Positions 3,460 through 41,766 of a stretch of 64,000 nt of DNA are shown here, piece after piece. The translations under genes were made by a program, and so were the position numbers. The DNA is taken from the NCBI RefSeq assembly GCF_008630495.1, contig NZ_VWOJ01000004.1, positions 1 through 64,000 on the forward strand. The letters are read 5' to 3'. A model generated the notes under the pieces. The model ran no database searches. It was not told the DNA's origin and saw only the letters and a list, made by a program, of their open reading frames with translations. How positions within the stretch are numbered: the stretch's first letter is position 1; every line of letters starts with the position of its first letter. Source of the stretch: Alkalicaulis satelles. GTDB taxonomy: Bacteria > Pseudomonadota > Alphaproteobacteria > Caulobacterales > Maricaulaceae.

Positions 3460-3840
3460 ATGGGCCAGGCGAAGAATCCCCGGCGGGTCGCCGAGACCGA
3501 AGCGCGCGCCAAGCTGCGCATGCTGCGCATCAGCCCGCAGAAGCTCAACCTCATTGCCGCCATGATCCGCGGCAAGAAGGTCGAGCGCGCGCTCAACGAT
3601 CTCGAGTTCTCGCGCAAGCGCGCCTCGCAGGACGTGAAAAAGCTGCTGCAGTCCGCGATCGCCAATGCGGAAAACAATCATGGCCTGGACATCGACTCGC
3701 TGGTCGTGTCCGAGGCCTATGTCGGCAAGAACCTGGTGATGAAGCGCTTCCGGGCCCGCGCACGCGGCCGCGGCGCGAAGATCCTCAAGCCGTTCTCCGA
3801 GCTGACGATCGTCGTGCGTGAAGTCGAGGAGGCCGCCTGA
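3460..3840 (+). CDS. rplV: 50S ribosomal protein L22
   Basis: L22 contacts all 23S domains and its beta hairpin lines the exit tunnel. The product is 126 residues, contains [19 protein letters not shown] near the N-terminus, and has the tunnel-hairpin region with the basic run [13 protein letters not shown]. Spacing to rpsS is two bases. The stop codon overlaps the rpsC start by one base (TGATG). Confidence 0.97.
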
Positions 3841-4544
3841 TGGGTCAGAAAGTCAATCCGATCGGCCTGCGGGTCGGCATTAACCGCACCTGGGACTCGC
3901 GCTGGTTCGCCAAAGGCGAGGAATACGCCGATCTCTTGCACGAGGATCTCAAGATCCGTGCGTTCCTGAAGGACAAGCTCAAGAACGCCTCGGTCTCGCG
4001 CATCATCATCGAGCGTCCGCACAAGAAGTGCCGCATCACCATCCATACCGCCCGTCCGGGCGTGGTGATCGGCAAGAAGGGCGGCGATATCGAGAAGCTG
4101 CGCCGCGAGATCGCGTCCATGGTGGACAGCGAGGTGTTCCTGAACCTCGTGGAAGTGCGCAAGCCGGAAGTCGACGCCACCCTGGTGGCCGAGAGCATCG
4201 CCCAGCAGCTCGAGCGCCGTGTGGCGTTCCGCCGGGCGATGAAGCGCTCGCTGCAGACCACCATGCGCATGGGCGCTCTGGGCTGCAAGATCATGGTGGG
4301 CGGCCGTCTGGGCGGCGCGGAAATCGCGCGCGTTGAAAAATATTCCGAAGGCTCTGTGCCGCTGCACACCCTGCGGGCTGACATCGATTACGGCTTTGCT
4401 GAAGCCAAGACCGCGATGGGCATTATTGGCGTGAAGGTGTGGATCTACAAAGGCGAGATCCTCGAGCACGATCCGATGGCCCAGGAGCGCCGCATGCAGG
4501 ATTCCGGCGAGCAGCGCACACGGTCTGGCCGTCAGGCGGCGTAA
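3840..4544 (+). CDS. rpsC: 30S ribosomal protein S3
   Basis: S3 contributes to the mRNA entry channel and has intrinsic mRNA helicase activity in family members. The 234-residue product begins [21 protein letters not shown] domain is seen around residues 60-110, including the [14 protein letters not shown] loop, and a C-terminal S3 domain follows. Its start overlaps the rplV stop. A gap of 24 bases with a GGGAG element precedes rplP. Confidence 0.97.
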
Positions 4545-4568
4545 GAGCGGAACAAGGGAGCTGTCACC

Positions 4569-4982
4569 ATGCTTCAACCGAAGCGCACCAAATTCCGCAA
4601 GGCGTTCAAGGGCCGTATCCACGGCGCGGCCAAGGGCGGATACACGCTGAATTTCGGTTCCTATGGCCTCAAGGCCATGGAGCCCGAGCGCGTCACCGCG
4701 CGTCAGATCGAGGCGACCCGCCGGGCTATCACGCGCCACATGAAGCGCGCTGGCCGGGTGTGGATCCGCGTATTCCCCGATCTGCCGGTGTCGAAAAAGC
4801 CGACCGAGGTGCGGATGGGTAAAGGCAAGGGCTCGCCCGAATACTGGGTGGCTAAGGTCAAGCCCGGGCGCATCATGTTCGAGATTGACGGCGTGCCCGA
4901 TGACGTGGCCCGCGAGGCGCTGCGCCTGGGCGCGGCCAAGCTGCCGATCAAGACCCGGGTCGTGACCCGGCCTGGCGAGTAA
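4569..4982 (+). CDS. rplP: 50S ribosomal protein L16
   Basis: L16 helps shape the A-site side of the 50S subunit. The product is 137 residues, the usual size, and begins [19 protein letters not shown]. It contains the L16 signature [21 protein letters not shown]. The AAGGGAG upstream at about 4554-4560 fits the ATG at 4569. It is transcribed with rpsC and rpmC. Confidence 0.97.
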
Positions 4983-4995
4983 GGGAGAGGTCCTG

Positions 4996-5211
4996 ATGGC
5001 CAAGCAGCTGACAGGCGAAGACGTGCGCGCGCTTAGCGACGACCAGCTTCAGGAATCGCTCCTCAAGCTCAAGAAAGAACAGTTCAATTTGCGGTTCCAG
5101 CAGGCCACCGGCCAGCTCGAGAACACCGCGCGCTACAAGCAGATCCGCCGGGACATCGCCCGGATCAAGACGGATCAGCGCCGGCGCGCGCTCCAGACTC
5201 AAGGGAGCTGA
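4996..5211 (+). CDS. rpmC: 50S ribosomal protein L29
   Basis: L29 is a small helical protein next to L23 at the tunnel exit. The 71-residue product contains the family pattern [19 protein letters not shown] followed by RRDIARIKT. It lies 13 bases after rplP and four bases before rpsQ, the normal order for this operon. Confidence 0.96.
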
Positions 5212-5215
5212 GGCC

Positions 5216-5452
5216 ATGCCGAAGCGCATCCTTCAAGGCGTCGTGGTCAGCGACAAGCAGCACAAGACAGTGGTGGTCCGCGTCGAGCGCACCTTCCTGC
5301 ACCCGCTGCTGCGCAAGACCGTGCGGCGGACCAAGAAATACCACGCCCATGATGAAAACGGCGTGGCCAAGGTGGGCGAGCGCGTCCAGATCCAGGAGTG
5401 CGCGCCCAAGTCGAAACTCAAGCGGTGGGAGATCGTTCCCGCTCAGGCGTAA
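5216..5452 (+). CDS. rpsQ: 30S ribosomal protein S17
   Basis: S17 is a primary 16S rRNA-binding protein with an OB fold. The product of 78 residues starts [18 protein letters not shown] and has the motif [15 protein letters not shown] and a KYHAHDE segment. Length and position between rpmC and rplN are standard. A 42-base gap with AACGGAGA separates it from rplN. Confidence 0.96.
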
Positions 5453-5494
5453 GCCTGAAACGGGAATGGTTGTTCCGATAACGGAGACCTTCCA

Positions 5495-5863
5495 ATGATC
5501 CAGATGCAAACCAATCTGGACGTGGCCGATAATTCCGGCGCCCGCCGCGTGCAGTGCATCAAGGTGCTGGGCGGCGCCAAGCGGCGGTACGCGAGCGTGG
5601 GCGACATCATTGTCGTCTCGGTCAAGGAAGCCGCGCCCAAAGGCCGTGTCAAAAAAGGCGATGTGCGCAAGGCTGTGGTCGTGCGCACCGCCCGGGATAT
5701 CAAGCGACGTGACGGATCGGTGATCCGTTTCGACACCAACGCCGCTGTCCTGATCAACAACAATAACGAGCCGATCGGCACCCGGATCTTTGGCCCGGTG
5801 CCGCGTGAGCTGCGCGCCAAGCAGCACATGAAGATCGTCTCCCTGGCGCCGGAGGTGCTGTAG
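5495..5863 (+). CDS. rplN: 50S ribosomal protein L14
   Basis: L14 forms an intersubunit bridge with 16S helix 14. The 122-residue product starts [19 protein letters not shown] and has the L14 signature region [17 protein letters not shown] and the conserved [11 protein letters not shown]. It has standard length and order, and its stop is two bases before the rplX start. Confidence 0.97.
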
Positions 5864-5865
5864 CC

Positions 5866-6183
5866 ATGGCCGCGAAGATCAAGAAAGGCGACAAGGTCGT
5901 CGTCCTGACCGGCCGCGACAAGGGCAAGTCCGGCGAGGTGGTCAAGGTGCTGCCGTCTGAAGACCGCGTGGTGGTCTCCGGCGTGAACACCGTCAAGCGC
6001 CACCAGCGTCCGACCCAGACCAGCGCGGGCGGCATTGTGGAAAAAGACGCGTCCATCCACGTCTCCAACGTGGCTCTGACCGATCCCAAGTCCGGCGAGC
6101 CGACCCGCGTCGGTTTCAAGACCGGCAAGGACGGCAAGAAGGTGCGCGTGGCCAAGAAGTCCGGCGAGGTGATCGATGTCTGA
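5866..6183 (+). CDS. rplX: 50S ribosomal protein L24
   Basis: L24 is an assembly initiator for the 50S subunit. The product has 105 residues and carries an N-terminal KOW motif, [20 protein letters not shown], followed by the [13 protein letters not shown] segment. Its 3' end overlaps the start of rplE by eight bases, so the two are probably translationally coupled. Confidence 0.96.
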
Positions 6184-6736
6184 CACCGCTATTTACGAGC
6201 CGCGCCTGAAAGCGCGCTACCGCGAAGAGATTCGCGCGCGCCTGAAGGAAAAGTTCGGCTACAAGAATGACCTTGAGATCCCGCGCCTTGAGAAGGTCGT
6301 GATCAATATGGGCGTGGGCGAGGCGGCTCAGGATTCCAAGAAAATCCAGGGCGCTCTCGCCGATCTGGAGGCGATCGCCGGCCAGAAGCCGGTGGCGACC
6401 GCCGCCAAGACCTCCATCGCCGGTTTCAAGCTGCGTGAAGAGCAGCTGATCGGCGCCAAGGTCACGCTGCGCCAGGACCGGATGTACGAGTTCCTCGACC
6501 GTCTGGTGACTATCGCCCTGCCGCGGGTCCGCGACTTCCGCGGCCTCAACGGCAAGAGCTTTGACGGGCGCGGCAACTACGCCATGGGTCTCAAGGAGCA
6601 CATCGTGTTCCCCGAGATCAACTACGACAAGGTCGACAAGGTTCGCGGCATGGACATCGTCGTGTGCACGACCGCGAAGACTGATGAGGAAGCGAAGGCC
6701 CTGCTGGCCGAGTTCGATTTCCCGTTCACGAACTGA
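6176..6736 (+). CDS. rplE: 50S ribosomal protein L5
   Basis: L5 binds 5S rRNA and contacts the P-site tRNA. The 186-residue product shows [33 protein letters not shown] and [20 protein letters not shown], all conserved L5 blocks. It overlaps rplX by eight bases. A 50-base spacer with AGGAGAG leads to rpsN. Confidence 0.97.
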
Positions 6737-6786
6737 CGCAGCAGGAGCGCGGGGCCAGGGTGGCGCCGCACGCAGGAGAGATTTGA

Positions 6787-7092
6787 ATGGCCAAGAAGAG
6801 CGCTATCGAGCGTAACAGCAAGCGTCAGCGGCTGGCGGAGCGTTTCGCCGCCAAGCGCGCCGCGCTGAAAGCGATCGCCCGCGATACGTCCAAGCCCGTG
6901 GAAGAGCGGTTTGCCGCCCAGATGAAGCTGGCCGGCCTGCCGCGCAATTCCGCGCCCACGCGCATCCGCAACCGCTGCCAGGTCAGCGGGCGCCCGCGCG
7001 CGTATTACCGCAAGCTGAAAATGTCGCGCATCGCGCTGCGTCAGCTGGCCAGCCACGGGATGATCCCTGGCATGGTCAAGTCGAGCTGGTAG
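6787..7092 (+). CDS. rpsN: 30S ribosomal protein S14
   Basis: S14 is a late-assembling 30S head protein. The product is 101 residues and ends [21 protein letters not shown]. It is the long form without the paired CXXC zinc ligands; only one cysteine is visible, in [11 protein letters not shown]. It sits in the usual place between rplE and rpsH. Confidence 0.97.
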
Positions 7093-7103
7093 GAGGTCAG
7101 GAC

Positions 7104-7502
7104 ATGTCTGTGAACGATCCGCTCGGCGATATGCTGACCCGCATCCGCAACGCGCTGATGCGCAAGCGCACCAGCGTCACCACGCCGGCCTCGACGCTGC
7201 GCGCGCGCGTGCTCGATGTGCTGCTCGAAGAGGGCTATATCCGCGGTTACACCGAAACCACGGATGATCGCGGCTTCAAGCAGTACGACATCGAACTGAA
7301 ATACTATGAGGGCGCGCCGGTCATTTCCGACATCAAGCGCGTCTCCAAGCCGGGCCGTCGCGAATACCGCAAGGTGCGCGACCTGCCTCTGGTCCAGAAC
7401 GGTCTGGGCATCGCCATCATTTCCACGCCCCAGGGCGTGATGAGCGACGCCGCTGCGCGCGCCAAGAATGTTGGCGGCGAGATCCTCTGCCACGTCAGCT
7501 AG
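7104..7502 (+). CDS. rpsH: 30S ribosomal protein S8
   Basis: S8 binds the central domain of 16S rRNA and in enterobacteria represses the spc operon. The 132-residue product begins [18 protein letters not shown] and ends with the typical [30 protein letters not shown]. An AGGAGG lies at about 7092-7097. A 16-base spacer precedes rplF. Confidence 0.97.
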
Positions 7503-7518
7503 GAAACAGGAGGCTAAC

Positions 7519-8052
7519 ATGTCGCGACTGGGCAAGCTGCCTGTTGAAATCCCCTCCGGGGTCACCGCTTCGGTGGCTGCCGGCGTGGTCTCCGTGAAGG
7601 GACCCAAGGGCGAGCTGACCTTCTCGGCGCCCTCGAGCGTGCGCATTCTCCAGGAGGATGGCGCGCTGAAGGTGGAGCCGGCGGAGAACTCGAAATCGGC
7701 CAAAGCCATGTACGGCACGGCGCGTGCGCGCATCAAGAACATGGTCGCGGGCGTCACCAAGGGTTTTGAAAAGAACCTGGAGCTTGTGGGCGTGGGCTAT
7801 CGTGCCCAAATGCAGGGCAGCGATCTCAAACTTGCGCTCGGCTTCTCGCACGATGTGATCTACACCCCGCGCAAGGGGATCACGATCACGGTGGCCAAGC
7901 CGACCGAGATCAAGATCGAGGGCGCGGACGCCCAGGCGGTTGGACAGACGGCGGCTGAAATCCGCCGGTTCCGCGCGCCGGAGCCCTATAAGGGCAAGGG
8001 CGTGAAGTATGCGGACGAGCATGTCCGCCGCAAGGAAGGCAAGAAGAAGTAA
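7519..8052 (+). CDS. rplF: 50S ribosomal protein L6
   Basis: L6 lies near the sarcin-ricin loop and factor-binding site. The chosen ATG at 7519 follows AGGAGG by five bases and gives [15 protein letters not shown], the normal L6 N-terminus (177 residues). An in-frame ATG at 7468 lies inside rpsH and is rejected. Conserved blocks are VKGPKGEL and the C-terminal [23 protein letters not shown]. Confidence 0.97.
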
Positions 8053-8061
8053 GGGCCGGTG

Positions 8062-8415
8062 ATGAAAACCTCAGCTGAGAAAATGCGCCGCCGCGCGCAG
8101 CGCACCCGCGCCCGGATCCGCAAGCTGGCCAATGGCCGGCCGCGCCTGTCCGTGTTCAGGTCGTCCAAGCACATCTACGCGCAGATCATTGATGACGCCA
8201 ACGGCCAGACCCTGGCCGCGGCTTCCTCGCTCGAACAGGGCAAGGACTCCAATGGCGCCACTGTCGACGCCGCCTCCACGGTGGGCAAGCTGGTGGCCGA
8301 GCGCGCCAAGGAAAAAGGCCTGACCGAGGTCGTGTTCGACCGCGGCGGCTACATGTATCACGGGCGGGTCAAAGCGCTCGCCGACGCCGCCCGCGAGGGC
8401 GGACTGAACTTCTAG
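8062..8415 (+). CDS. rplR: 50S ribosomal protein L18
   Basis: L18 binds 5S rRNA together with L5. Adjacent GTG (8059) and ATG (8062) codons are both possible starts; the ATG is used, giving 117 residues. The product shows [18 protein letters not shown] and ends with [22 protein letters not shown], the L18 core. It is followed 13 bases later by rpsE, with GGGGAGCGAA upstream of it. Confidence 0.96.
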
Positions 8416-8428
8416 GGGAGCGAACGCC

Positions 8429-9013
8429 ATGGCTCGTGAAGACAATCGCGGCGGCCGCGACCGCCGCCGCAGGGAAGAAGACAACGCGGACTCCGATCTG
8501 GTCGACAAGCTCGTCCAGATCAACCGCGTCGCCAAGACCGTGAAGGGCGGCCGGAACTTCCAGTTCGCCGCACTCGCGGTTGTGGGCGACCAGAAGGGCC
8601 GCGTCGGCTTCGGCCAGGGCAAGGCCCGCGAGGTGCCTGAAGCCATCCGCAAGGCGACCGAGGAAGCCAAGAAGATGATGGTGCGCATTCCCCTGCGCGA
8701 AGGCCGCACCCTGCACCACGACGCCCACGGGCGCTGGGGCGCGGGCAAGGTGGTTCTGCGCTCGGCGCCTCCGGGCACCGGCGTGATCGCGGGTGGTCCG
8801 ATGCGCGCGGTTCTGGAATCCCTGGGCGTTCAGGACGTGGTGGCCAAGTCCACCGGCTCGTCCAACCCCTACAACATGGTGCGCGCCACGTTCGAGGCCC
8901 TCAAGGCCCAGAACAGCCCGCGTTCAGTCGCCGCCAAGCGCGGCCTGAAGGTGGCGGATCTGGTGGAGCGCCGCCAGGATGGCGCCAGCGCGCCTGAAGC
9001 GATCGAGTCCTGA
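8429..9013 (+). CDS. rpsE: 30S ribosomal protein S5
   Basis: S5 acts in decoding fidelity and mRNA entry. The 194-residue product has the S5 N-terminal domain [25 protein letters not shown] and the C-terminal block [29 protein letters not shown]. An Arg/Asp/Glu-rich N-terminal extension (about 20 residues) is also typical of alphaproteobacteria. It lies directly upstream of rpmD. Confidence 0.97.
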
Positions 9014-9024
9014 GGGAGGGGCGC

Positions 9025-9210
9025 ATGGCTACCAAGACAACCATTCGCGTGCGCCAGACCGGGTCCTCGACCCGGCGTCCCGCCTATCAGGCCGCGACCC
9101 TCAAGGGTCTGGGCCTGGGCCGCATCGGGCGCGAGCGCGAGCTTGAAGACACACCGGCCGTGCGCGGCATGATCCGCAAGGTCGCCCATCTGATCGAGAT
9201 CGTGGACTAA
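9025..9210 (+). CDS. rpmD: 50S ribosomal protein L30
   Basis: L30 is a small peripheral 50S protein. The 61-residue product contains the signature [20 protein letters not shown] and ends [12 protein letters not shown]. It is preceded by GAGGGAGGGGCGC and followed by a 33-base spacer before the rplO start. Confidence 0.95.
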
Positions 9211-9243
9211 GGCCTGAAGGGCCGGTCCTGAAGGAGAATGGCA

Positions 9244-9726
9244 ATGCGCTTGAATGAATTGCGCGACAATGACGGCGCCGTCAAAGAGCGCCAGCGCGTC
9301 GGGCGCGGCATCGGCTCTGGCAAGGGCAAGACCGGCGGACGCGGCGTAAAAGGCCAGAAGTCCCGCTCGGGCGTGTCCATCAAGGGCTTCGAAGGCGGTC
9401 AGATGCCGCTGCACCAGCGTCTGCCCAAGCGCGGCTTCAACAAGCCGAACCGGGCGCGCTTCGCCGAGGTCACCCTCGGCCGGCTGCAGGCCGCTGTGGA
9501 TGCGGGCCGTCTGGACGCGGCCCAGCCCGTGGACGCCGCAGCCCTGATCGCGGCCGGCGTGATCCGCCGCGCCAAGGATGGCGTGCGCGTGATCGGCGGC
9601 GGGGAGCTGAAAGCCAAGCTGGCCCTGACCGTGGCTGGCGGCTCTGCGCCCGCCATCGCCGCTGTCGAGAAAGCGGGCGGGTCGGTCACGGTGACCGCCG
9701 CCAAAACCGAGACGCAAGACGACTAA
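9244..9726 (+). CDS. rplO: 50S ribosomal protein L15
   Basis: L15 organises the 50S core near 5S rRNA. Two in-frame ATGs occur, 9238 and 9244. The AGGAG at 9232-9236 is only one base from 9238 but seven from 9244, so 9244 ([14 protein letters not shown]) is chosen; this gives 160 residues. Conserved features are [20 protein letters not shown] near the N-terminus and [26 protein letters not shown]. It is the last ribosomal gene before secY. Confidence 0.96.
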
Positions 9727-9793
9727 GCTGAAAGCGCGCCGGCGCGGCCCTGTCCGCCCGGCGCCTTTTCGCGCGAGGGAGTGAACGACCGCC

Positions 9794-11146
9794 ATGGCGT
9801 CAGCCGCCGAACAACTCGCCGCGAACATGAATTTCGGGGCCTTCGCCCGCGCCAAGGAGCTGCAGAAGCGGCTCCTGTTCACGTTGATGGTTCTGATCAT
9901 CTACCGCATCGGCACCTATGTGCCGTTGCCGGGCGTGGACATGGTCCAGTTTGCGATGATCTTCGACCAGCACAGCCAGGGCGCGGTGGGCATGTTCAAC
10001 ATGTTCTCCGGCGGCGCCGTGGAGCGCATGGCGATCTTCGCGCTCAACGTCATGCCCTATATCTCGGCCTCCATCATCATGCAGCTCATGGCGGCCACCG
10101 TGCCGGCCCTGGAGCGCATGAAGAAGGAAGGCGGCGAGCAGGGCCGCAAGCAGATCAACCAGTATTCGCGTTATCTCACCGTGGTGCTGGCCGCCGCTCA
10201 GGGCTTCGCCATCGCGATCGCCATGCAGCAGCCGGATCCGTCCACAGGCAATACTGTGGCGCTCAATCCCGGCCTGTTCTTCATCATCGTGACTGTCAGC
10301 ACGCTGGTGGGCGGCACCATGCTGCTGTTGTGGCTGGGCGAGCAGATCACGGCGCGCGGCGTGGGCAATGGCGTGTCGCTGATCATCTTTGCAGGCATTA
10401 TCGCGGAAATGCCGCGCGCGCTGTTCCAGACCATGGAGCAGGGCCGCACCGGCGAGCTGGACGCTGCGCTGGTGGTGGCGCTGCTGGCCATGCTGGTGGC
10501 GGTGTTGACCTTCGTTGTGTTCATTGAGCGCTCCCAGCGCCGGCTGCTGACCCAGTATCCCAAGCGCCAGGTGGGCAACCGCATGATGGGCGGGGAATCC
10601 TCCTTCCTGCCGCTCAAGCTGAACACCGCGGGCGTGATCCCGGCGATCTTTGCCTCCTCGCTCTTGCTGCTGCCCATGACGGCGGCGGGCTTCCAGGCCG
10701 ATTCCGGTCCGGCCTGGCTGCGCGACCTGGTGGCCACGCTCGGCCCGGGCCAGCCCATGTTCATCGTCTTCTATGGCGCGATGATCGTGTTCTTCACCTT
10801 CTTCTACACCTCCATCACCTTCAATCCCGAAGACGTGGCGGATAATCTCAAGAAGTATGGCGGCTTCCTGCCGGGCATCCGGCCGGGCAAGCGCACGGCT
10901 GAATATCTCGATTATGTGCTGACCCGCCTGACGGTGATCGGCGCGGCCTATCTGGCGGCGGTGTGTCTGTTGCCCGAGCTGCTGCGCATGCAGAACCCGT
11001 CCATCCCGTTCTATATCGGCGGCACGGCGCTTCTCATCGTGGTGTCGGTGACGCTCGATACGATCGGACAGATCCAGTCCCACCTGCTGGCCCACCAGTA
11101 TGAAGGTCTCATCAAGAAGACCAAGCTTCGGGGACGCAAGCGATGA
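9794..11146 (+). CDS. secY: Protein translocase subunit SecY
   Basis: SecY is the channel of the Sec translocon in the inner membrane. The 450-residue product has ten expected hydrophobic helices and starts MASAAEQLAANMNFGAFARAKELQKR. Family blocks seen are RIGTYVPLPGV, LNVMPYISASIIMQL and the cytosolic loop FFYTSITFNPEDVADNLKKYGGF, where SecA and ribosomes bind. It overlaps adk by four bases (ATGA), a common alphaproteobacterial arrangement. Confidence 0.97.
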   Translation: MASAAEQLAANMNFGAFARAKELQKRLLFTLMVLIIYRIGTYVPLPGVDMVQFAMIFDQHSQGAVGMFNMFSGGAVERMAIFALNVMPYISASIIMQLMAATVPALERMKKEGGEQGRKQINQYSRYLTVVLAAAQGFAIAIAMQQPDPSTGNTVALNPGLFFIIVTVSTLVGGTMLLLWLGEQITARGVGNGVSLIIFAGIIAEMPRALFQTMEQGRTGELDAALVVALLAMLVAVLTFVVFIERSQRRLLTQYPKRQVGNRMMGGESSFLPLKLNTAGVIPAIFASSLLLLPMTAAGFQADSGPAWLRDLVATLGPGQPMFIVFYGAMIVFFTFFYTSITFNPEDVADNLKKYGGFLPGIRPGKRTAEYLDYVLTRLTVIGAAYLAAVCLLPELLRMQNPSIPFYIGGTALLIVVSVTLDTIGQIQSHLLAHQYEGLIKKTKLRGRKR

Positions 11147-11703
11147 ACATCGTCCTGTTCGGACCGCCGGGCGCTGGCAAGGGCACCCAGGCCAAGCGTC
11201 TGGTCGCCGAACGCGGCTGGGTTCAGCTGGCCACCGGCGACATGCTGCGCGCGGCGCGCGCGGCGGGCACCGAACTGGGCAAGCGCGTGGCCGATATCAT
11301 GGATCGCGGCGATCTGGTTTCCGACGAGATCGTCATCGCCCTGATCGAGGAGCGCCTGCCTGAAGCCGAAGCGGCGGGCGGGGCCATCTTTGACGGCTTC
11401 CCGCGCACCGTCGCCCAGGCCGAGGCGCTGGACGCGCTGCTGGCCAAGCGCGGCGCGCCGATTGCGCGCGTTGTGCGCCTGGTGGTCGACCAGGACGAAC
11501 TGGTCGCGCGCATGACCAAGCGGGCCGGGGAAGAGGGCCGGGCGGATGACAATGCCGAGGCCTTCAAGATCCGCCTGAACAACTATAATACCCAGACCGC
11601 CGCCCTGATCCCGTACTATCAGGCTCAGGGCAAGATGGCCGATGTGGACGGCAGCGGTGATATCGACACGGTTGCGGCGCGCATCGCCGCAGCGCTGGAC
11701 TAA
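11143..11703 (+). CDS. adk: Adenylate kinase
   Basis: Adk interconverts ATP + AMP and 2 ADP in the cytoplasm. The P-loop GPPGAGKGTQAKR is at the N-terminus and the AMP-binding DGFPRTVAQAEALD is near residue 85. The enzyme is 186 residues, about 28 shorter than the E. coli enzyme: the region around KRAGEEGRADDNAEAFKIRL is the short-LID form without the extra beta lid or zinc cysteines. It overlaps secY by four bases. Confidence 0.96.
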   Translation: MNIVLFGPPGAGKGTQAKRLVAERGWVQLATGDMLRAARAAGTELGKRVADIMDRGDLVSDEIVIALIEERLPEAEAAGGAIFDGFPRTVAQAEALDALLAKRGAPIARVVRLVVDQDELVARMTKRAGEEGRADDNAEAFKIRLNNYNTQTAALIPYYQAQGKMADVDGSGDIDTVAARIAAALD

Positions 11704-11717
11704 AGCAGACGGGCCGC

Positions 11718-11734
11718 GCCCGGATGGTCCGGGC
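11718..11734 (+). other. Small hairpin after adk
   Basis: GCCCGGA-TGG-TCCGGGC forms a seven-bp stem with a three-base loop shortly after the adk stop. There is no T-run, so it is at best a weak or factor-dependent end of the spc transcript. Confidence 0.3.
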
Positions 11735-11768
11735 GAGGCGAAATGTGAGGCTGCGCCGCTCATTCCGG

Positions 11769-11796
11769 TTGACGGAACCGGGGCGGCGCCTATAAG
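11769..11796 (+). promoter_or_regulatory. Candidate sigma-70 promoter for rpsM-rpsK-rpoA-rplQ
   Basis: TTGACG at 11769-11774 and TATAAG at 11791-11796 are separated by 16 bases, close to the housekeeping consensus. The 201-base gap between adk and rpsM has no gene, so this is the likely start of the alpha operon with a leader of about 100 bases. Confidence 0.65.
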
Positions 11797-11904
11797 AACC
11801 GCCCTTCGCTCGCAGGGGCAGATGCTGTCATCCGCGCCGCCAGGACTGGCGGAGCGGTCAAGCATCCTTCGCGGGCGCAGGCTGATGAGGACAAGGAGAG
11901 CGTC

Positions 11905-12273
11905 GTGGCACGGATCGCCGGCGTCAATATTCCGACCAACAAGCGCGTCACAGTCGCGCTGCGCTATATCCATGGCATTGGCGAAGCCAAGGCCGCCGAG
12001 ATCTGCGAAAAGGTGGGCATTCCCGCCGACAAGCGGGTCAATCAGCTGACCGACGCCGAGGTGCTGCAAATTCGCGAGACCATTGATGGCGGTTACATGG
12101 TGGAGGGTGACCTTCGCCGTGAGGTGGCGGTCAACGTCAAGCGGCTGATGGATCTGGGCTGCTATCGCGGCCTGCGTCACCGCCGCGGCCTGCCTGTGCG
12201 CGGCCAGCGCACCCACACCAATGCGCGCACCCGCAAGGGTCCCGCCAAGCCGATCGCCGGCAAGAAGAAATAA
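11905..12273 (+). CDS. rpsM: 30S ribosomal protein S13
   Basis: S13 is a 30S head protein contacting the P-site tRNA and the 50S subunit. The 122-residue product uses a GTG start, supported by AAGGAG at 11893-11898 and by the family N-terminus [15 protein letters not shown]. The basic C-terminus [18 protein letters not shown] is diagnostic. It is the first gene of the alpha operon here, 13 bases ahead of rpsK. Confidence 0.97.
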
Positions 12274-12285
12274 GGAACGAGGGCC

Positions 12286-12675
12286 ATGGCCAAGGAACCG
12301 TCCCGCGTCCGCCGCCGCGAGCGCAAGAATATCACCGCTGGCGTCGCGCATGTGAACGCGAGCTTCAACAACACCATGATCACCATCACTGACGCCCAGG
12401 GCAACGCCATTTCATGGTCGTCGGCGGGCACCATGGGGTTCAAGGGGTCGCGCAAGTCCACGCCCTACGCCGCGCAGGTCGCCGCTGAAGATGCGGGCCG
12501 CAAGGCGCAGGAGCACGGGCTGAAGACCCTCGAGGTGAAAGTCTCCGGTCCCGGTTCGGGCCGTGAAAGCGCGCTTCGCGCTCTGCAGTCCATCGGGCTG
12601 GTGATCACCACGATCCATGACGTGACGCCGATCCCGCACAATGGCTGCCGCCCGCCGAAGCGCCGCCGGGTCTGA
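12286..12675 (+). CDS. rpsK: 30S ribosomal protein S11
   Basis: S11 lies on the 30S platform near the mRNA exit. The 129-residue product has [39 protein letters not shown] and the C-terminal [18 protein letters not shown], all S11 signatures. It follows rpsM by 12 bases. A hairpin lies in the spacer to rpoA. Confidence 0.97.
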
Positions 12676-12684
12676 CGCCGCGTC

Positions 12685-12720
12685 CAGCGCCCCCTTTTGC
12701 GGGCGCTGAGCTGTTATTTT
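12685..12720 (+). terminator. Hairpin with T-rich tail between rpsK and rpoA
   Basis: CAGCGCCC at 12685-12692 pairs with GGGCGCTG at 12701-12708, and TTATTTT follows at 12714-12720. The tail is five bases from the stem, so this may be an attenuator that lowers rpoA relative to the ribosomal genes rather than a full terminator. Confidence 0.4.
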
Positions 12721-12781
12721 CAGGGCGCGCAGCTCTCCTTGTAGGGAGCGGCGCGCCTCACGCCTCGAAGGGGTGACGTCC

Positions 12782-13801
12782 GTGATTGAGAAAAACTGGC
12801 AAGAACTGATCCGCCCGATGAAGCCGGAAATCCAGTCCGGCTTTGACCCGTCGCGTCACGCCAAGCTGATCGCCGAGCCGCTCGAGCGCGGCTTTGGCAC
12901 CACGCTGGGCAATGCGCTGCGCCGCGTGCTCCTGTCCTCGCTGCAGGGCGCGGCTGTGACCTCGGTGCAGATCGACAACGTGCTGCACGAGTTCTCCTCC
13001 ATCAAGGGCGTGCGCGAAGACGTCACCGAGATCATCCTGAACCTCAAGCAAATCGCGCTGCGCATGCAGGGCGAGGGCCCCAAACGCCTGATGCTGCGCA
13101 AGAGCGGCCCGGGCGAGGTGAAGGCCGGCGATATTGAGGAAACCGGCGATATCTCGGTGATCAACAAGGACCTGGTCATCTGCACCCTGGATGACGACGC
13201 CGAAGTGCGCATGGTGCTGACCGTCAATACCGGCAAGGGCTATGTCCCGGCGGAGAATAACCGCGCCGAAGACGCCCCCATCGGCCTCATTGGCGTGGAC
13301 GCCCTGTACAGCCCGGTCAAGCGCGTCTCCTACCGGGTGGAGAACACCCGCGAAGGCCAGGTGCTGGACTATGACAAGCTGATCCTGGAAGTCGAAACCA
13401 ATGGCGCGGTGAAGCCGGAAGACGCTGTGGCCTACGCCGCGCGCATCCTGCAGGACCAGCTCCAGGCGTTCGTGAATTTCGAGGACCCCAACCAGGGCCG
13501 CACCGAAACCTCCGACAAGCCCGATCTGGACTTCAACCCGGCCCTCCTCAAAAAGGTGGACGAGCTGGAACTGTCGGTGCGTTCGGCCAACTGCCTGAAG
13601 AACGACAATATCGTCTATATCGGCGACCTGATCCAGAAGTCCGAGGCGGAAATGCTCCGCACCCCGAACTTCGGGCGCAAGTCGCTCAACGAGATCAAGG
13701 AAGTTCTCGCCCAGATGGGTCTGCATCTGGGCATGGAGGCGCCCAACTGGCCGCCTGAGAATATCGAGGATCTCGCCAAGAAATACGAGGATCAGATCTA
13801 G
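12782..13801 (+). CDS. rpoA: RNA polymerase alpha subunit
   Basis: RpoA dimerises to nucleate RNA polymerase assembly and contacts UP elements and activators. The GTG at 12782 gives [17 protein letters not shown] (339 residues), matching the usual alphaproteobacterial start; an in-frame GTG at 12773 would add three residues and lies too close to the AAGGGG at 12767-12772. The N-terminal domain includes [20 protein letters not shown]; the C-terminal domain has [23 protein letters not shown] and [14 protein letters not shown]. Confidence 0.97.
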
Positions 13802-36431: not shown

Positions 36432-37433
36432 TCACCGCTCCAGCACGTTCCGGATCCAGGGCCCGAAGGGCGAACCGCCCAGCCAGGCGAGCTGGGCCTC
36501 CCGGCTGGCGTCATTGATGGCGAGCTGAGGCCGGACGCCCGGATGCACCGCGATGCGCAGGGGCCGCGCGCCCTGCGGCCTGGCGATCACATCTGCGATA
36601 GCGTGCGGGATGTCCATCGGATCGGTGTCGCCGCCCCCGCCGCGCGCTTCGCCCATCCCGGCGGTCAGCTCGGGATAGGCGGCCAGGGTCTCTTCCGGCG
36701 TGCGGTCACGCAGCGACGCGGCCAGCGCGCTGGCGTTATTCCAGATTTCAGTCGGGTAGCCGCCCGGCTGGATGATCGTCACATCAATGCCGTGGGGGAC
36801 CAGCTCATAGGCCATCGCCTCGCTCATGGCCTCCAGCGCAAACTTGGTCGGCGAGTAATGGCCCAGGCCCGGCGCGATCACCCGGCCGAGCTGGGAGGAT
36901 ATTTGCACGATCAGGCCACGGCCCGCCGCGCGCATCGCCGGCAGGACGGCGCGCGCCATGCGATGGGGACCGTAGGTATTGGTCTCGAACATGAGGCGCG
37001 TCGCCTCCATGTCCTGCACCTCGACCGGACTGCCCAGCCCGATGCCGGCGTTATTGATCAGCACGTCCAGCGTTCCGCCCGTCGCCTCCAGGACAGTCGC
37101 CACGCCGCGCGCAACGCTGTCATCGGACGTGACATCGATCTCCACCACGTCGATGGCGAGCCCCTCGGCCTCGGCCAGCGCCGTCAGCTCATCAGCCTCT
37201 GGCCGGGGCAGGTTGCGCATGGACGCAAACACCCGCGCGCCCAGCCGCGCATAATATTCCGCCCCGAGCCGCCCGAAACCGGAGGACGCGCCGGTGATCA
37301 ATATGGTCTGGCCTTCAAGGGAGCGCTCGCCCTCGCGCGCTGCGCCCAGGGCCGCCGGCGCTGCGCTGGCCGCGCCCATCACCGCCGCTGAACCCCCCAG
37401 CAATTGCCGCCGGTTTACGCCCTGTCTGGCCAT
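36432..37433 (-). CDS. Tat-exported short-chain dehydrogenase
   Basis: A 333-residue SDR with an N-terminal twin-arginine signal (VNRRQLLGGSAAVMG followed by an Ala-rich hydrophobic stretch), so it is likely exported folded with its cofactor. The nucleotide motif is TGASSGFG; NNAGIG and the catalytic Tyr/Lys in YSPTKFALEAM are present. Tat signals are unusual for SDRs, which are normally cytosolic. The substrate is unknown. It is divergent from the cytosine methyltransferase gene. Confidence 0.82.
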   Translation of the reverse strand: MARQGVNRRQLLGGSAAVMGAASAAPAALGAAREGERSLEGQTILITGASSGFGRLGAEYYARLGARVFASMRNLPRPEADELTALAEAEGLAIDVVEIDVTSDDSVARGVATVLEATGGTLDVLINNAGIGLGSPVEVQDMEATRLMFETNTYGPHRMARAVLPAMRAAGRGLIVQISSQLGRVIAPGLGHYSPTKFALEAMSEAMAYELVPHGIDVTIIQPGGYPTEIWNNASALAASLRDRTPEETLAAYPELTAGMGEARGGGGDTDPMDIPHAIADVIARPQGARPLRIAVHPGVRPQLAINDASREAQLAWLGGSPFGPWIRNVLER

Positions 37434-37561
37434 GTCGTCGTCTCCTCAATGCCTTTGGCGTTCACGATAGGCAGATCACGCCGGAAGACAAACCACCTTG
37501 ATGGCTCCCGCGCCACACCGCCACGCTTCGCGCGGGCGCGCATCACGCTATGCTGGCGCGC

Positions 37562-38725
37562 ATGAGCGCTGATTCCCGATACGGCTTTTATGAATTCTTC
37601 TGCGGCGGCGGCATGGCCCGTCTGGGGCTGGGGCGGCGCTGGCGGTGTGATTTCGCCAATGATATCGACCCGGACAAGCTGGCGGCCTACCGGGCCAATT
37701 TCGGCGACGATGATCTGCGGCCTGGCGATGTGGCCGGGGTGGCGCCCGATGAACTGCCCGGCTTTGCCGATCTCGCCTGGGCGAGCTTTCCCTGTCAGGA
37801 CCTGTCGCTGGCCGGCCCGCGCAGCGGACTGAAAGGCGCGCGCTCGGGCGTGTTCTACAGCTTCTGGCGCCTGATCGAGGCTCTGCAGGCCGAGGGCCGG
37901 GCGCCGCGCCTGATCGGGCTGGAGAATGTGCCGGGCCTTCTGACCTGTTCGGGCGGTGATGATTTCACCGCGCTGTGCGCCGCGCTGGATGAGGGCGGCT
38001 ACCGCTTCGGGGCGCTGGAGATTGATGCGCGCTGGTTCACGCCCCAGTCGCGCCCGCGCCTGTTCGTGATCGCCCTGCGCAAGGACATCCCCATCCCCGC
38101 CGATCTGGCGCTGGACGATGCGCCCGGCCACCTCTCCCCCTTCCACACCGGCGCGGTGCAGAGGGCGGCCCGGCGCCTGCCTGAGCCTCTCAAGAAGAAC
38201 TGGGTGTGGTGGGCCTTGCCCGTGCCGCCGCGGCCCAACGAAACCCTGATCCACAAGATCGAAGCGCCGCGCGCCGTGCCCTGGCACAGCCCGGAAGAGA
38301 CGCGCCGCCTGGTGGAGATGATGAACGCGCCGTCCAGAGCGCGCCTCAGGGAGGCCCGCAAGGCCGAAGGCCCGGTGGCCGGGGCGCTCTACCGCCGCAT
38401 GCGGGTGGAGAACGGCGTCAAGGTGCAGCGCGCCGAGGCGCGCTTTGACGGGCTGGCCGGTTGCCTGCGCACGCCCGGCGGCGGGTCGTCGCGCCAGTTC
38501 GTGGTCTGGGTCAGGAACGGCCGGGTGCGCACCCGGCCCATGACAGCGCGCGAATACGCCCGCCTGATGGGCCTGCCGGAGGACTACAAACTGCCGGCGC
38601 GCGAGAGCGCGGCGCTGCACCTGTCGGGTGATGGCGTGTCGGTGGATGTGGTGGCGTTCCTGCGCGAAAATCTGTTCGAACCGGTGCTGGACCACGCGCG
38701 CGCCTGCGCGCTGGCGGCGGAGTAG
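37562..38725 (+). CDS. dcm: DNA (cytosine-5-)-methyltransferase
   Basis: A C5-cytosine methyltransferase of 387 residues from the ATG at 37562 (MSADSRYGFYEFFCGGG). Motif I is EFFCGGGMARLGLG; motif IV is SFPCQDLS with catalytic C78; motif VI is ENVPG at 121; motif VIII is QSRPR at 162. The target-recognition region lies at about 190-320, and motif X is near the C-terminus. No cognate restriction endonuclease is visible. A Vsr gene two cistrons later suggests a Dcm-type solitary enzyme. The next start is four bases after its stop. Confidence 0.93.
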   Translation: MSADSRYGFYEFFCGGGMARLGLGRRWRCDFANDIDPDKLAAYRANFGDDDLRPGDVAGVAPDELPGFADLAWASFPCQDLSLAGPRSGLKGARSGVFYSFWRLIEALQAEGRAPRLIGLENVPGLLTCSGGDDFTALCAALDEGGYRFGALEIDARWFTPQSRPRLFVIALRKDIPIPADLALDDAPGHLSPFHTGAVQRAARRLPEPLKKNWVWWALPVPPRPNETLIHKIEAPRAVPWHSPEETRRLVEMMNAPSRARLREARKAEGPVAGALYRRMRVENGVKVQRAEARFDGLAGCLRTPGGGSSRQFVVWVRNGRVRTRPMTAREYARLMGLPEDYKLPARESAALHLSGDGVSVDVVAFLRENLFEPVLDHARACALAAE

Positions 38726-38729
38726 TTCG

Positions 38730-39911
38730 TTGCGTGTGGCGGTGGCCGGCAGCGGGATTGCGGGTCTGGCCAGCGCCGCCCGCCTCGCTCGCGCCGGTCA
38801 TGACGTGACGATCTTCGAACGCTTCGACGCGCCGCGCCCTGTGGGGGCGGGACTGCTCCTGCAGCCCAGCGGGCTCCAGGCGCTGGAGGGGCTCGATATC
38901 CGCGATCAGGTGGAGGCGCGCGGGGCGCATGTCTCGCGCCTGATCGGGCGCAATATGCGCGGGCGCGCCGTGCTGGATTTGCGTTACAGGGATGCGCGCC
39001 GCGACGATTACGGCGTGGGCATTCACCGCGCCAGCCTGTTTGATCTCTTGCTCACCGCCGCGCGCGAGGCGGGCGCGCAGTTCCGCACGGGCTGCGACGT
39101 GGCCTCCATCGCGGGTATCGACACGGACGCGCCGCGCCTCTCTTTGGCGGGCGGGGAGGAGACGGATGGCTTTGATCTGGTGCTGGTGTGCGACGGCGCC
39201 CATTCGCGCCTGCGCCGGATCGTCTGCTCGCAGGCGCGCGAGCGGGTCTTCCCGTGGGGCGCGTTCTGGGCCATTCGCCCGGACCCGGACGGGGCGCGCG
39301 AGGGCGAGCTGGAGCAGGTCTATGACGGTTGCCGCATCATGATCGGGCTGTTGCCGGTTGGCGATAATCCGGCGGACGCCGAAGGGCGTCCGGGCGTGAG
39401 CGTTTTCTGGTCGGTGCGCGCCGATGCGCGCGAGGCGGTGCTGGCGGCGGGCGATGAGGCCTTCCGCGACGGGTTCGCGCGCTACTGGCCGCGCGCGGCG
39501 CGAGCGGTGGGAGATGCCGGGCTCGATGAGTTCGCCTATGCCGCCTATCAGGACGCCATCGTGCCGCGCTGGCGCCGGGGCCGGGTGATGCTGCTGGGCG
39601 ATGCCGCCCACGCCATGAGCCCGCAGCTGGGCCAGGGCGCCAATCTGGCCCTGTGCGACGCCGCGGCGCTGGCGCAGGCGTTTGCGGGCGAGGCGCGTGT
39701 CCTGCACGCCATGAAAAGCGCCGAGCGCGCGCGGCGTCCGGCCACCACCTATTACAGCCTGATGAGCCGGGCGCTGACGCCGGTCTTCCAGTCCTCCTCG
39801 AAGCTGCTGGGATGGGCGCGCGACATCGTGTTCAATCTCTCCGGCCGCCTGCCGGGCCTGCGCCACTGGATGGGCTGGACGCTCACGGGCCGCGGGCGCA
39901 TGCCATGGTGA
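38730..39911 (+). CDS. FAD-dependent monooxygenase
   Basis: A 393-residue class A flavin hydroxylase of the UbiH/salicylate hydroxylase superfamily. Motifs: GSGIAGLASA dinucleotide-binding loop at 7-16, VCDGAHSRLRR (DG motif), and LLGDAAHAMSPQLGQGANLALCDA (GD motif). The start is taken as TTG at 38730, seven bases after GGAG; GTG at 38736 is the alternative. It is tightly packed between dcm and vsr (four-base gap, seven-base overlap), so co-transcription is likely. Its substrate and any link to DNA modification are unknown. Confidence 0.85.
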   Translation: MRVAVAGSGIAGLASAARLARAGHDVTIFERFDAPRPVGAGLLLQPSGLQALEGLDIRDQVEARGAHVSRLIGRNMRGRAVLDLRYRDARRDDYGVGIHRASLFDLLLTAAREAGAQFRTGCDVASIAGIDTDAPRLSLAGGEETDGFDLVLVCDGAHSRLRRIVCSQARERVFPWGAFWAIRPDPDGAREGELEQVYDGCRIMIGLLPVGDNPADAEGRPGVSVFWSVRADAREAVLAAGDEAFRDGFARYWPRAARAVGDAGLDEFAYAAYQDAIVPRWRRGRVMLLGDAAHAMSPQLGQGANLALCDAAALAQAFAGEARVLHAMKSAERARRPATTYYSLMSRALTPVFQSSSKLLGWARDIVFNLSGRLPGLRHWMGWTLTGRGRMPW

Positions 39912-40357
39912 GCGGGCCGGGCAGCGACGTCTTCACCCCCGCCCAGCGCTCGGCGGTCATGGCGGCGGTGAAGGGGCGCGACACAAGGCCGGAAATGATC
40001 GTGCGCAGGCTGGTCCATGGCCTGGGCTATCGCTTCCGCCTGCACCGCAAGGATTTGCCCGGCAGGCCGGACCTGGTGTTCGCCGGCCGGCGCAAGGTGA
40101 TTTTCGTCCACGGATGCTTCTGGCATGGCCATGACTGCGCACGCGGGCGCCGCGAGCCGAAGCAGAACGCCGATTACTGGCGCGCCAAGATCGCCCGCAA
40201 TGTGGCGCGCGATGCGGCCAGCCTCGCCGCCCTCGAGGCGGACGGCTGGCAGGCTCTGGTCGTGTGGGAGTGCGCACTGAAGGACCGCGAAGCGCTGGCC
40301 GCGCGCCTGCAGGCGTTTCTCGGCCCGCCGGGCGGGCGATCAGCGCGGCGCGTTTGA
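39905..40357 (+). CDS. vsr: Very short patch repair endonuclease Vsr
   Basis: Vsr nicks DNA 5' of the T in T:G mismatches produced by deamination of 5-methylcytosine. The 150-residue protein starts MVSGPGSDVFTPAQRSAVM and carries TRPEMIVRRLVHGLGYRFRLHRKDLPGRPDLVF with catalytic-type D56, then FVHGCFWHGHDC with the family histidines and zinc-binding cysteine residues. The ATG lies inside the last codons of the monooxygenase gene (seven-base overlap). It is downstream of the methyltransferase whose damage it would repair. Confidence 0.93.
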   Translation: MVSGPGSDVFTPAQRSAVMAAVKGRDTRPEMIVRRLVHGLGYRFRLHRKDLPGRPDLVFAGRRKVIFVHGCFWHGHDCARGRREPKQNADYWRAKIARNVARDAASLAALEADGWQALVVWECALKDREALAARLQAFLGPPGGRSARRV

Positions 40358-40419: not shown

Positions 40420-41766
40420 ATGACCGTGAAAGTCCGCTTCGCCCCGAGCCCGACCGGGCGCCTTCATGTGGGCAATGTGCGCACCGCGCTGATGAACGTG
40501 CTGTTCGCGCGCGCCCAGGGCGGCAAGGTGCTCCTGCGCATCGATGACACCGATCTGGAGCGCTCCACGGCCGAATACGAGCAGGGCATCAAGGATGACC
40601 TGACCTGGCTCGGCCTGCACTGGGACGAGACCTTCAACCAGTCCCACCATTTCGACCAGTATGAAGCGGCCAAGGCGCGCCTTGTGGAGGCCGGCTATCT
40701 CTATCCCTGCTACGAGACCGAGGACGAGCTGGAGCGCAAGCGCAAGATCCAGCGCGCCCAAGGCAAGCCGCCGGTCTATGACCGCGCCGCGCTGAGCCTC
40801 ACCGAGGCCGACCGCGCCAAGCTGGAGGCCGAAGGGCGCACGCCCCACTGGCGCTTCAAGCTGTCGGGCGGGCGCATTGAATGGACCGATCTGGTGCGCG
40901 GACCCAGCCATATCGAGACCAGCTCGGTCTCCGACCCGATCCTGATCCGCGCCGATGGCAGCTATCTCTACACACTGCCCAGCGTGGTCGATGATCTGGA
41001 CGCGGCCATCACCCACATCATCCGCGGCGAGGACCACGTCACCAATTCGGCCGCCCAGATCGAGATTTTCGAGGCGCTGGGCGGCAAGGGCGCCGCGCCG
41101 CAAATGGGCCATCACCCGCTGCTGGTGGGCAAGGATGGCGAGAAACTCTCCAAGCGCCTGGGCTCGCTCTCGGTGCAGGGCCTGCGCGAGGAGGAGGGGA
41201 TCGAGCCCCTGGCGGTGCTGTCGCTGCTGGCCAAGCTGGGCACCTCCGATCCGGTGGAGCCGCGTGGCTCTTTTGAGGCGCTGGCGGCCGATTTCGATCT
41301 GGCCAAGCTGTCGCGCACCCCGGCGCGCTTTGATCCGGCGGAGCTGGAGCGCCTGAACGCCAAGTTGGTTCATGATCTGAACTATTTGGATGTGAAAGAT
41401 AAGCTCGCGGCCATCAACGCCGATGGCGGCGAGGCGTTCTGGAACGCCGTGCGCGCCAATCTCACCCGGGTGCGCGATGCGGCCGAATGGCGCCAGCTGG
41501 TGGACGGCCCGGTCACCCCGGTGATCGAGGATGCGGAGTTCTGCGCCGCCGCCGCCGGCCTGCTGCCCGAAGGGACGCTGGACGGCGACAGCTGGGGCGC
41601 CTGGACCGGCGCGGTCAAGGCGGCCACGGGCCGCAAAGGCAAGGATCTGTTCATGCCGCTGCGCCTGGCGCTGACCGGTCAGCCGCGCGGTCCTGAAATG
41701 GCCGTGCTGCTGCCCCTGATCGGCGCGGACAAGGCCCGCGCAAGGTTGTCGGGCAAGACCGTCTAG
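40420..41766 (+). CDS. gltX: Glutamate--tRNA ligase
   Basis: Class I aminoacyl-tRNA synthetase charging tRNA-Glu, 448 residues. The HIGH-type motif is in [16 protein letters not shown] (8-23), and the KMSKS-type motif is KLSKR at 242-246. [10 protein letters not shown] follows the first motif. Alphaproteobacteria often have two GltX copies, one of which may also charge tRNA-Gln; which this one is cannot be decided. Its last four bases overlap the stop of the GNAT gene on the other strand. Confidence 0.95.

Follow-up and report, generated by a model that had tools for sequence, protein, structure and literature searches.

The locus and its question

In the 64,000-nucleotide stretch that opens contig NZ_VWOJ01000004.1 of Alkalicaulis satelles (hereafter the window), a gene for a class A flavin monooxygenase (FMO) lies between dcm, encoding a C5-cytosine DNA methyltransferase, and vsr, encoding a very-short-patch-repair mismatch endonuclease. 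This arrangement raises the question of whether the flavoenzyme takes part in the modification of DNA, as the initial annotation had proposed, or is kept at this place for another reason. The comparative analysis indicates that FMO is a genuine, old and optional member of the methylase/Vsr locus. The explanation that we prefer, with evenly balanced confidence, is that FMO is a co-translated accessory class A hydroxylase with a small-molecule substrate, carried as the optional third gene of an old methylase and very-short-patch-repair locus.

All three open reading frames are intact in the window and lie on the forward strand. The dcm gene (37562..38725; 387 amino acids, TAG stop, with an alternative in-frame ATG start at 37550) is separated by four bases (38726..38729) from FMO (38730..39911; 393 amino acids, TTG start, TGA stop), which in turn overlaps vsr (39905..40357; 150 amino acids, ATG start, TGA stop) by the seven bases ATGGTGA (39905..39911), gap and overlap both being read directly from the sequence. 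The TTG start of FMO is backed by three relatives in the genus (L281, L202 and L203), since an ATG sits in them at the identical four-base spacing 3' of dcm. Matches to Pfam identify dcm (DNA_methylase PF00145, E 4.5e-39), FMO (FAD_binding_3 PF01494, E 5e-28) and vsr (Vsr PF03852, E 1.2e-34), and the NCBIfam models TIGR00675 for dcm and TIGR00632 for vsr score over their cut-offs; Vsr also matches PDB 1cw0 (E 3.8e-30). The gene order, the two junctions and the GxGxxG, DG and GD motifs described initially are thus borne out by the sequence, Pfam and NCBIfam. With C5-methylase and Vsr genes in one operon-like cluster, the locus is of the Dcm/Vsr very-short-patch-repair type, FMO standing between the two. 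It does not qualify as a restriction-modification system, as no restriction endonuclease gene is found beside the window dcm, whose neighbours are a short-chain dehydrogenase (SDR) gene, FMO, vsr and gltX. The source genome contains a single FMO match and a single dcm match at E<=0.001.

Conservation of the linkage

Among 15 genomes of the genus, an FMO orthologue (at least 59% identity, window counted) is present in 12, always directly 3' of dcm, and vsr directly follows FMO in 10 of these 12. Two genomes (G011 and G012) have dcm-FMO with no vsr at that place, one (G014) has dcm-vsr without FMO and one (G008) has dcm alone, a dcm match of 51-85% identity being found in every one of the 14 other genus genomes. 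Across the 137 genomes of the family (f1), FMO (at least 49% identity) occurs in 18 and dcm (E<=1e-60) in 29. Both occur together in 15 genomes (12 of the genus together with G045, G056 and G057) and are adjacent in all 15; vsr then follows in 12, and the contig of G057 stops after FMO. Of the 12 other family genomes in which the spacing between dcm and FMO was measured, 11 have values from -4 to 4 bases and L195 has 36 bases. An overlap of four or seven bases joins FMO to vsr in 32 of the 43 loci besides the window that have vsr 3' of FMO (9/9 in f1, 23/34 in family f3); the remaining 11 comprise six without a vsr start by the start-assignment rule used and five with other values. Through such overlapping stop and start codons FMO would probably be translated together with Vsr.

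The cluster occupies two places within the family. The six-genome subclade of the window (the window, G005, G006, G007, G010 and G011) has it next to gltX throughout, with vsr in five and no vsr in G011; gltX is not beside the cluster in any of five other genus regions tested, other genus members using another locus. There, the cluster is bordered by thioesterase-like, TPR and lipoprotein-like (LIPO) genes at one end and by a LysR gene at the other, all named via Pfam with the exception of the lipoprotein-like gene, which has no Pfam match. The whole order LIPO-dcm-FMO-vsr-LysR is found in G009 and G001 and parts of it in other genomes, and the same LIPO/LysR locus carries dcm alone in G136 and G088 and FMO alone in G096 and G097. 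The relative age of the two places is judged from the wider spread of one of them.

Relatives of FMO at E<=1e-45 were found in 157 of 398 genomes sampled from the order and in 20 of 385 from the class, and regions were fetched for a chosen part of these (85 of 109 distinct FMO sequences; the others with 1.5 kb of flank). In family f3, where FMO is found at E<=1e-70 in 40 of 299 genomes, dcm and cysK lie near FMO in 36/36 cases in genera g28 and g29, forming a dcm-cysK-FMO cluster, with vsr in 34; dcm is inverted in L318, and about 1 kb extra lies between dcm and cysK in L252 and L338. Near the four FMOs of genus g55, both dcm and vsr are absent. A third family, f4, contributes G167, with the order dcm-vsr-FMO and a GTGA overlap at each junction. 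As adjacency is conserved across genera and families, the grouping of dcm and FMO goes beyond chance. The recurrence in three families upholds the early view that FMO belongs with dcm and vsr and is no local accident; the link to DNA had been called unlikely should FMO not be conserved beside dcm/vsr in relatives, and it is so conserved.

A lipoprotein-like gene, divergent to dcm in G167, resembles its f1 counterpart (32%, E 8e-9). Used as a query it gave weak matches in 19 of 76 f3 regions (24-34%, E 4e-6 to 1e-3), and the f1 lipoprotein-like queries gave no match in the same 76 regions. This pattern suggests that the loci of f1, f3 and f4 descend from one ancestral locus.

Optional presence and selection

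In g28, dcm is present in 74 of 75 genomes, and the sample comprised 21 FMO genomes and 40 methylase regions from 39 more, with 14 genomes left out. Among these 40 further regions, 35 have dcm-cysK-vsr without FMO and one (L390) has FMO; four lack vsr (L379, with a second dcm apart from cysK; L391; L409, at a contig end; and L415, from the 4.0 Mb genome G274, with dcm-cysK). The g28 regions examined usually read dcm-cysK-vsr (L376-L415, e.g. L414). On a tree of dcm and cysK from 73 loci (36 with FMO; L318 and short rows dropped), the distribution of FMO calls for 13 changes, 10 of them forced by well-supported branches, compared with 24.8 in shuffles. In a close pair of genomes, G418 with FMO and G250 without it, the entire FMO is gone from the latter and vsr remains. 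Since its distances track those of cysK, FMO seems to have been inherited vertically in f3 and frequently lost.

The 52 linked rows of a 108-row FMO tree require four changes, three of them forced, compared with 36.4 in shuffles. A tree constrained to unite the f1 and f3 clades (54 rows, 51 linked) had a likelihood above that of the free quick search (P value of the approximately unbiased test, p-AU, 0.638), and adding G167 to the joined clades was not rejected (p-AU 0.48), neither value being proof of a clade. The ratio of non-synonymous to synonymous substitution (dN/dS) of FMO is 0.08-0.25 in the 11 pairs tried; the pair G096/G097, in which no dcm is found at E<=1e-60, gives 0.19. FMO is thus under purifying selection, also in two genomes without dcm.

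The encoded enzyme

The fingerprints of FMO, namely G7, G9 and G12 (GxGxxG), D155-G156 (DG) and G290-D291 (GD), show 94% conservation or more in each of the two linked clades. The DG motif, a textbook hydroxylase motif, is retained in every one of the 54 linked-clade rows but in only 8 of 53 rows of unlinked relatives, where SG (20 rows) and LG (17 rows) prevail; the linked enzymes are therefore a distinct group. The DG aspartate is one of 17 positions that the two linked clades both conserve, each of them common to fewer than half of the 53 unlinked relatives. Replacement of DG by SG or LG affects 37 of the 53 unlinked rows (L032, L150-L157 and others), and the members of this widespread group may perhaps be no ordinary hydroxylases.

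An AlphaFold model of the window FMO, built on a 10-row alignment, has a predicted local distance difference test score (pLDDT) of 84 and a single PHBH-type domain along the chain, the C-terminal part beyond about residue 350 being poorly predicted. Its best structural matches, over the whole length, are 3-hydroxybenzoate 6-hydroxylase, MHPCO, TrlE, HpxO and PHBH, at about 16-27% identity; the substrates of these solved enzymes are small aromatics, N-heteroaromatics and urate. By sequence, 6-hydroxynicotinate 3-monooxygenase is matched at E 1.7e-22. The FAD_binding_3 domain with its GxGxxG, DG and GD motifs and the single-chain PHBH fold place FMO in class A (PHBH-type). Among the best 25 of 86 NCBIfam models no curated cut-off was reached: PRK06847, the best, scores 146.5 of 372 bits, the urate hydroxylase HpxO, the fourth-best model, 117.6 of 500, and Ubi-OHases 98.7 of 224.65. 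The HpxO model matches all four FMO relatives that have any match (five tested), one of the four, L248, being unlinked. No fold of the TET/JBP-type Fe(II)/2-oxoglutarate dioxygenases is found among the Pfam matches of FMO, flavin hydroxylases covering the whole protein. A PADLOC search found no anti-phage defence component over the length of FMO, one model matching at residues 2-31 only (E 1.5e-7).

The catabolic setting that the initial annotation thought might betray an unrelated enzyme is borne out in part: the closest solved relatives are indeed aromatic or N-heteroaromatic hydroxylases, but at no more than about 16-27% identity, and the unlinked relatives share no common catabolic context, since besides FMO no gene family is common to more than 4 of 33 regions. 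Two of the surroundings may be mentioned. In f4, unlinked relatives (L339, L340, L342-L344) lie near guaB-, guaA- and RsmB-type RNA cytosine methylase-like genes, these names being assigned by eye and not all three genes being in each locus. In g55, an FMO relative (L248:5418-9699) is convergent with genes resembling the rut pyrimidine-use cluster, likewise named by eye.

Weighing the explanations

According to the preferred explanation, an old locus of a solitary methylase and very-short-patch repair would carry FMO as an optional third gene. Dcm would methylate cytosine in a short motif and Vsr would nick at the T:G mismatches that arise when 5-methylcytosine deaminates, as is established for their families and extended here by homology, and FMO, dependent on NAD(P)H and FAD, would oxygenate a small aromatic or N-heteroaromatic molecule, acting beside the DNA and not on it. 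Selection would then favour the expression of FMO together with vsr. FMO occurs without dcm (E<=1e-60) in G096, G097 and G044, which speaks against a role in DNA modification; G096 is without vsr at E<=1e-30, G097 has vsr elsewhere, and the contig of G044 stops after FMO. Several observations weigh against the preferred explanation. In loci without FMO, vsr is kept. At the level of 19 genera the tie is weak, with FMO in five, dcm in 11 and both in four, and the evidence is therefore one of physical linkage and not of presence. The FMO distances in f3 track those of cysK (r 0.89, 34 loci), and the 36 f3 cases are not independent because one locus has been inherited vertically. Finally, the search of the window operon showed neither an exact LexA-type box (pattern from PMC12907096) nor a sigma-70-like promoter.

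The main rival is that FMO is an inherited neighbour only, an unrelated metabolic gene that stood in the ancestral locus of the order and was kept by slow rearrangement. Whether selection or such plain synteny holds FMO in the locus is the central issue; we lean on selection with the even confidence given above and grant synteny a substantial, though lower, probability. The latter draws on the probable single ancestral locus, with the lipoprotein-like gene divergent beside dcm in f1, f4 and weakly f3. As this gene persists beside dcm in f1 and f4, other neighbours evidently stay together too. The vertical inheritance of the f3 locus, the frequent absence of FMO where vsr is kept and the genomes that carry FMO but no dcm at the LIPO/LysR locus all fit as well. 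However, the genes are contiguous and tightly spaced at both places in the family, next to gltX and in the LIPO/LysR locus, and so they are with cysK intervening in f3; in G167 vsr and FMO are swapped yet still tightly spaced. Moreover, the linked lineages (G167 with the f1 and f3 clades) comprise 55 FMOs, 52 of them at a dcm locus, compared with none of the 46-row sister group, 21 unlinked rows having a 1.5 kb flank only.

At the other extreme, FMO could be a true third partner of the 5-methylcytosine and very-short-patch-repair module since the ancestor of the order, its reaction serving the module; possible examples are the control of Vsr and a reaction with a methylated or repaired nucleobase product. 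We consider this unlikely; if true, FMO would be, to our knowledge, the first case of a flavin monooxygenase with a part in the 5-methylcytosine biology of bacteria. A smaller chance still is given to FMO handling a pyrimidine-like metabolite, or a nucleobase or nucleotide set free when methylated or repaired DNA is turned over: the rank of HpxO among the NCBIfam models, its matches to four relatives and the purine or pyridine rings on which HpxO and MHPCO act would agree with this, but all family scores are far under the curated cut-offs and FMO persists without dcm. Oxidation of DNA by FMO, be it at 5-methylcytosine or at another base, is highly improbable, in spite of the tight linkage of FMO to methylase and Vsr. 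A basic charge was tried as a sign of DNA binding: the linked f3 FMOs have a mean net charge of 8.9 and unlinked relatives 2.1-4.8, but the clade of the window's family is no more basic than the unlinked f3 relatives (4.8 in both), and the argument was dropped. The model is taken up by a single PHBH-type domain, and the structures it matches best are flavin hydroxylases of small molecules. Some genomes retain FMO but no dcm, and some loci retain dcm and vsr but no FMO. The whole-length flavin hydroxylase fold and the retention of FMO without dcm rule out a DNA-base oxidase as the leading reading, and the role in DNA modification proposed at the outset is not supported.

Genomic setting and regulation

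The cluster is flanked by the divergent SDR gene (36432..37433, reverse strand, PF00106) and by gltX, a glutamyl-tRNA synthetase-type gene (40420..41766, forward strand, PF00749, E 1.9e-69), both outside the unit. Since a ribosomal protein cluster is present, with S3, L24, L6, secY and rpoA genes at 3840-13801, about 24 kb upstream of dcm-FMO-vsr, the window is core chromosome, and mobile or phage cargo was rejected. Matches to FMO in plasmid collections comprise eight records at 33-37% identity, those in phages three records (best 34%), and a single viral contig has a 30-residue match.

Regulation by the SOS response was likewise rejected, exact LexA-type boxes being absent from the window operon. 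Such a box occurs in or near dcm, cysK, FMO or vsr in 8 of 142 loci scanned, three of which carry FMO (L318, L324 and L335), with the box at the dcm start in L318 only of these. Boxes less than about 50 bases from the start of the dcm match were seen in L270, L272, L273, L274 and L318, with FMO in L318 only.

Some further observations concern dcm. An apparent short dcm remnant adjoins vsr in G004 (L200:5312-5926), and a separate, 51% identical dcm lies elsewhere in that genome. Distant dcm homologues (44-51%) in G027 and G066 are followed by a GIY-YIG gene (L269:2948-3667, L273:1560-2120), which suggests a restriction-modification ancestry of such methylases. Among the PADLOC models, the window Dcm scores best against DruM2 of Druantia (471 bits); gene calls in the window reach 745 codons at most, which we take to be short for a Druantia helicase.

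Comparison with known systems

Many relatives in the window's order have vsr at the methylase locus, and often also a conserved gene for a flavin hydroxylase that overlaps vsr. FMO is thus a concrete, testable extra partner for the methylase/Vsr locus, and close relatives with and without it constitute a natural experiment on the purpose of that locus. With the class A flavoprotein monooxygenases 3-hydroxybenzoate 6-hydroxylase, MHPCO, HpxO, TrlE and 6-hydroxynicotinate 3-monooxygenase, FMO shares the whole-length fold and the FAD-binding fingerprints, at about 16-27% identity in structural alignments. We know of none of these enzymes being encoded with a DNA methylase. The dcm-vsr operon of E. 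coli presumably contains no flavin monooxygenase, and it differs in this from the present locus, where the FMO gene lies between both genes and overlaps vsr. The two are alike in having C5-methylase and Vsr genes in one co-directional cluster, the accessible part of PMC12907096 placing the E. coli dcm and vsr in one operon. Among the papers listed in the literature searches made, none dealt with a dcm-monooxygenase-vsr arrangement, which agrees with the initial remark that no described system of this kind was known; the words flavin and monooxygenase are absent from the main text of PMC12907096 as far as it was available.

The same source, in the portion accessible, treats the solitary methylase ScmA of C. 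crescentus and VsrA as linked functionally and not genetically, and its limitations section assigns the solitary cytosine methylase no clear role (PMC12907096). The window dcm may be orthologous to ScmA. Provided that g28 is Caulobacter and its dcm is ScmA, most congeners examined would link the methylase to vsr via cysK and, on that premise, G274 (L415, dcm-cysK without vsr) would fit the exception described in the available text of PMC12907096. As far as that text goes, the likeness extends to a solitary C5-methylase with a functionally linked Vsr and to an oppositely directed gene right beside scmA, as also stands beside dcm in the f3 loci; scmA and vsrA are unlinked in C. crescentus, whereas dcm and vsr are linked here, together with FMO.

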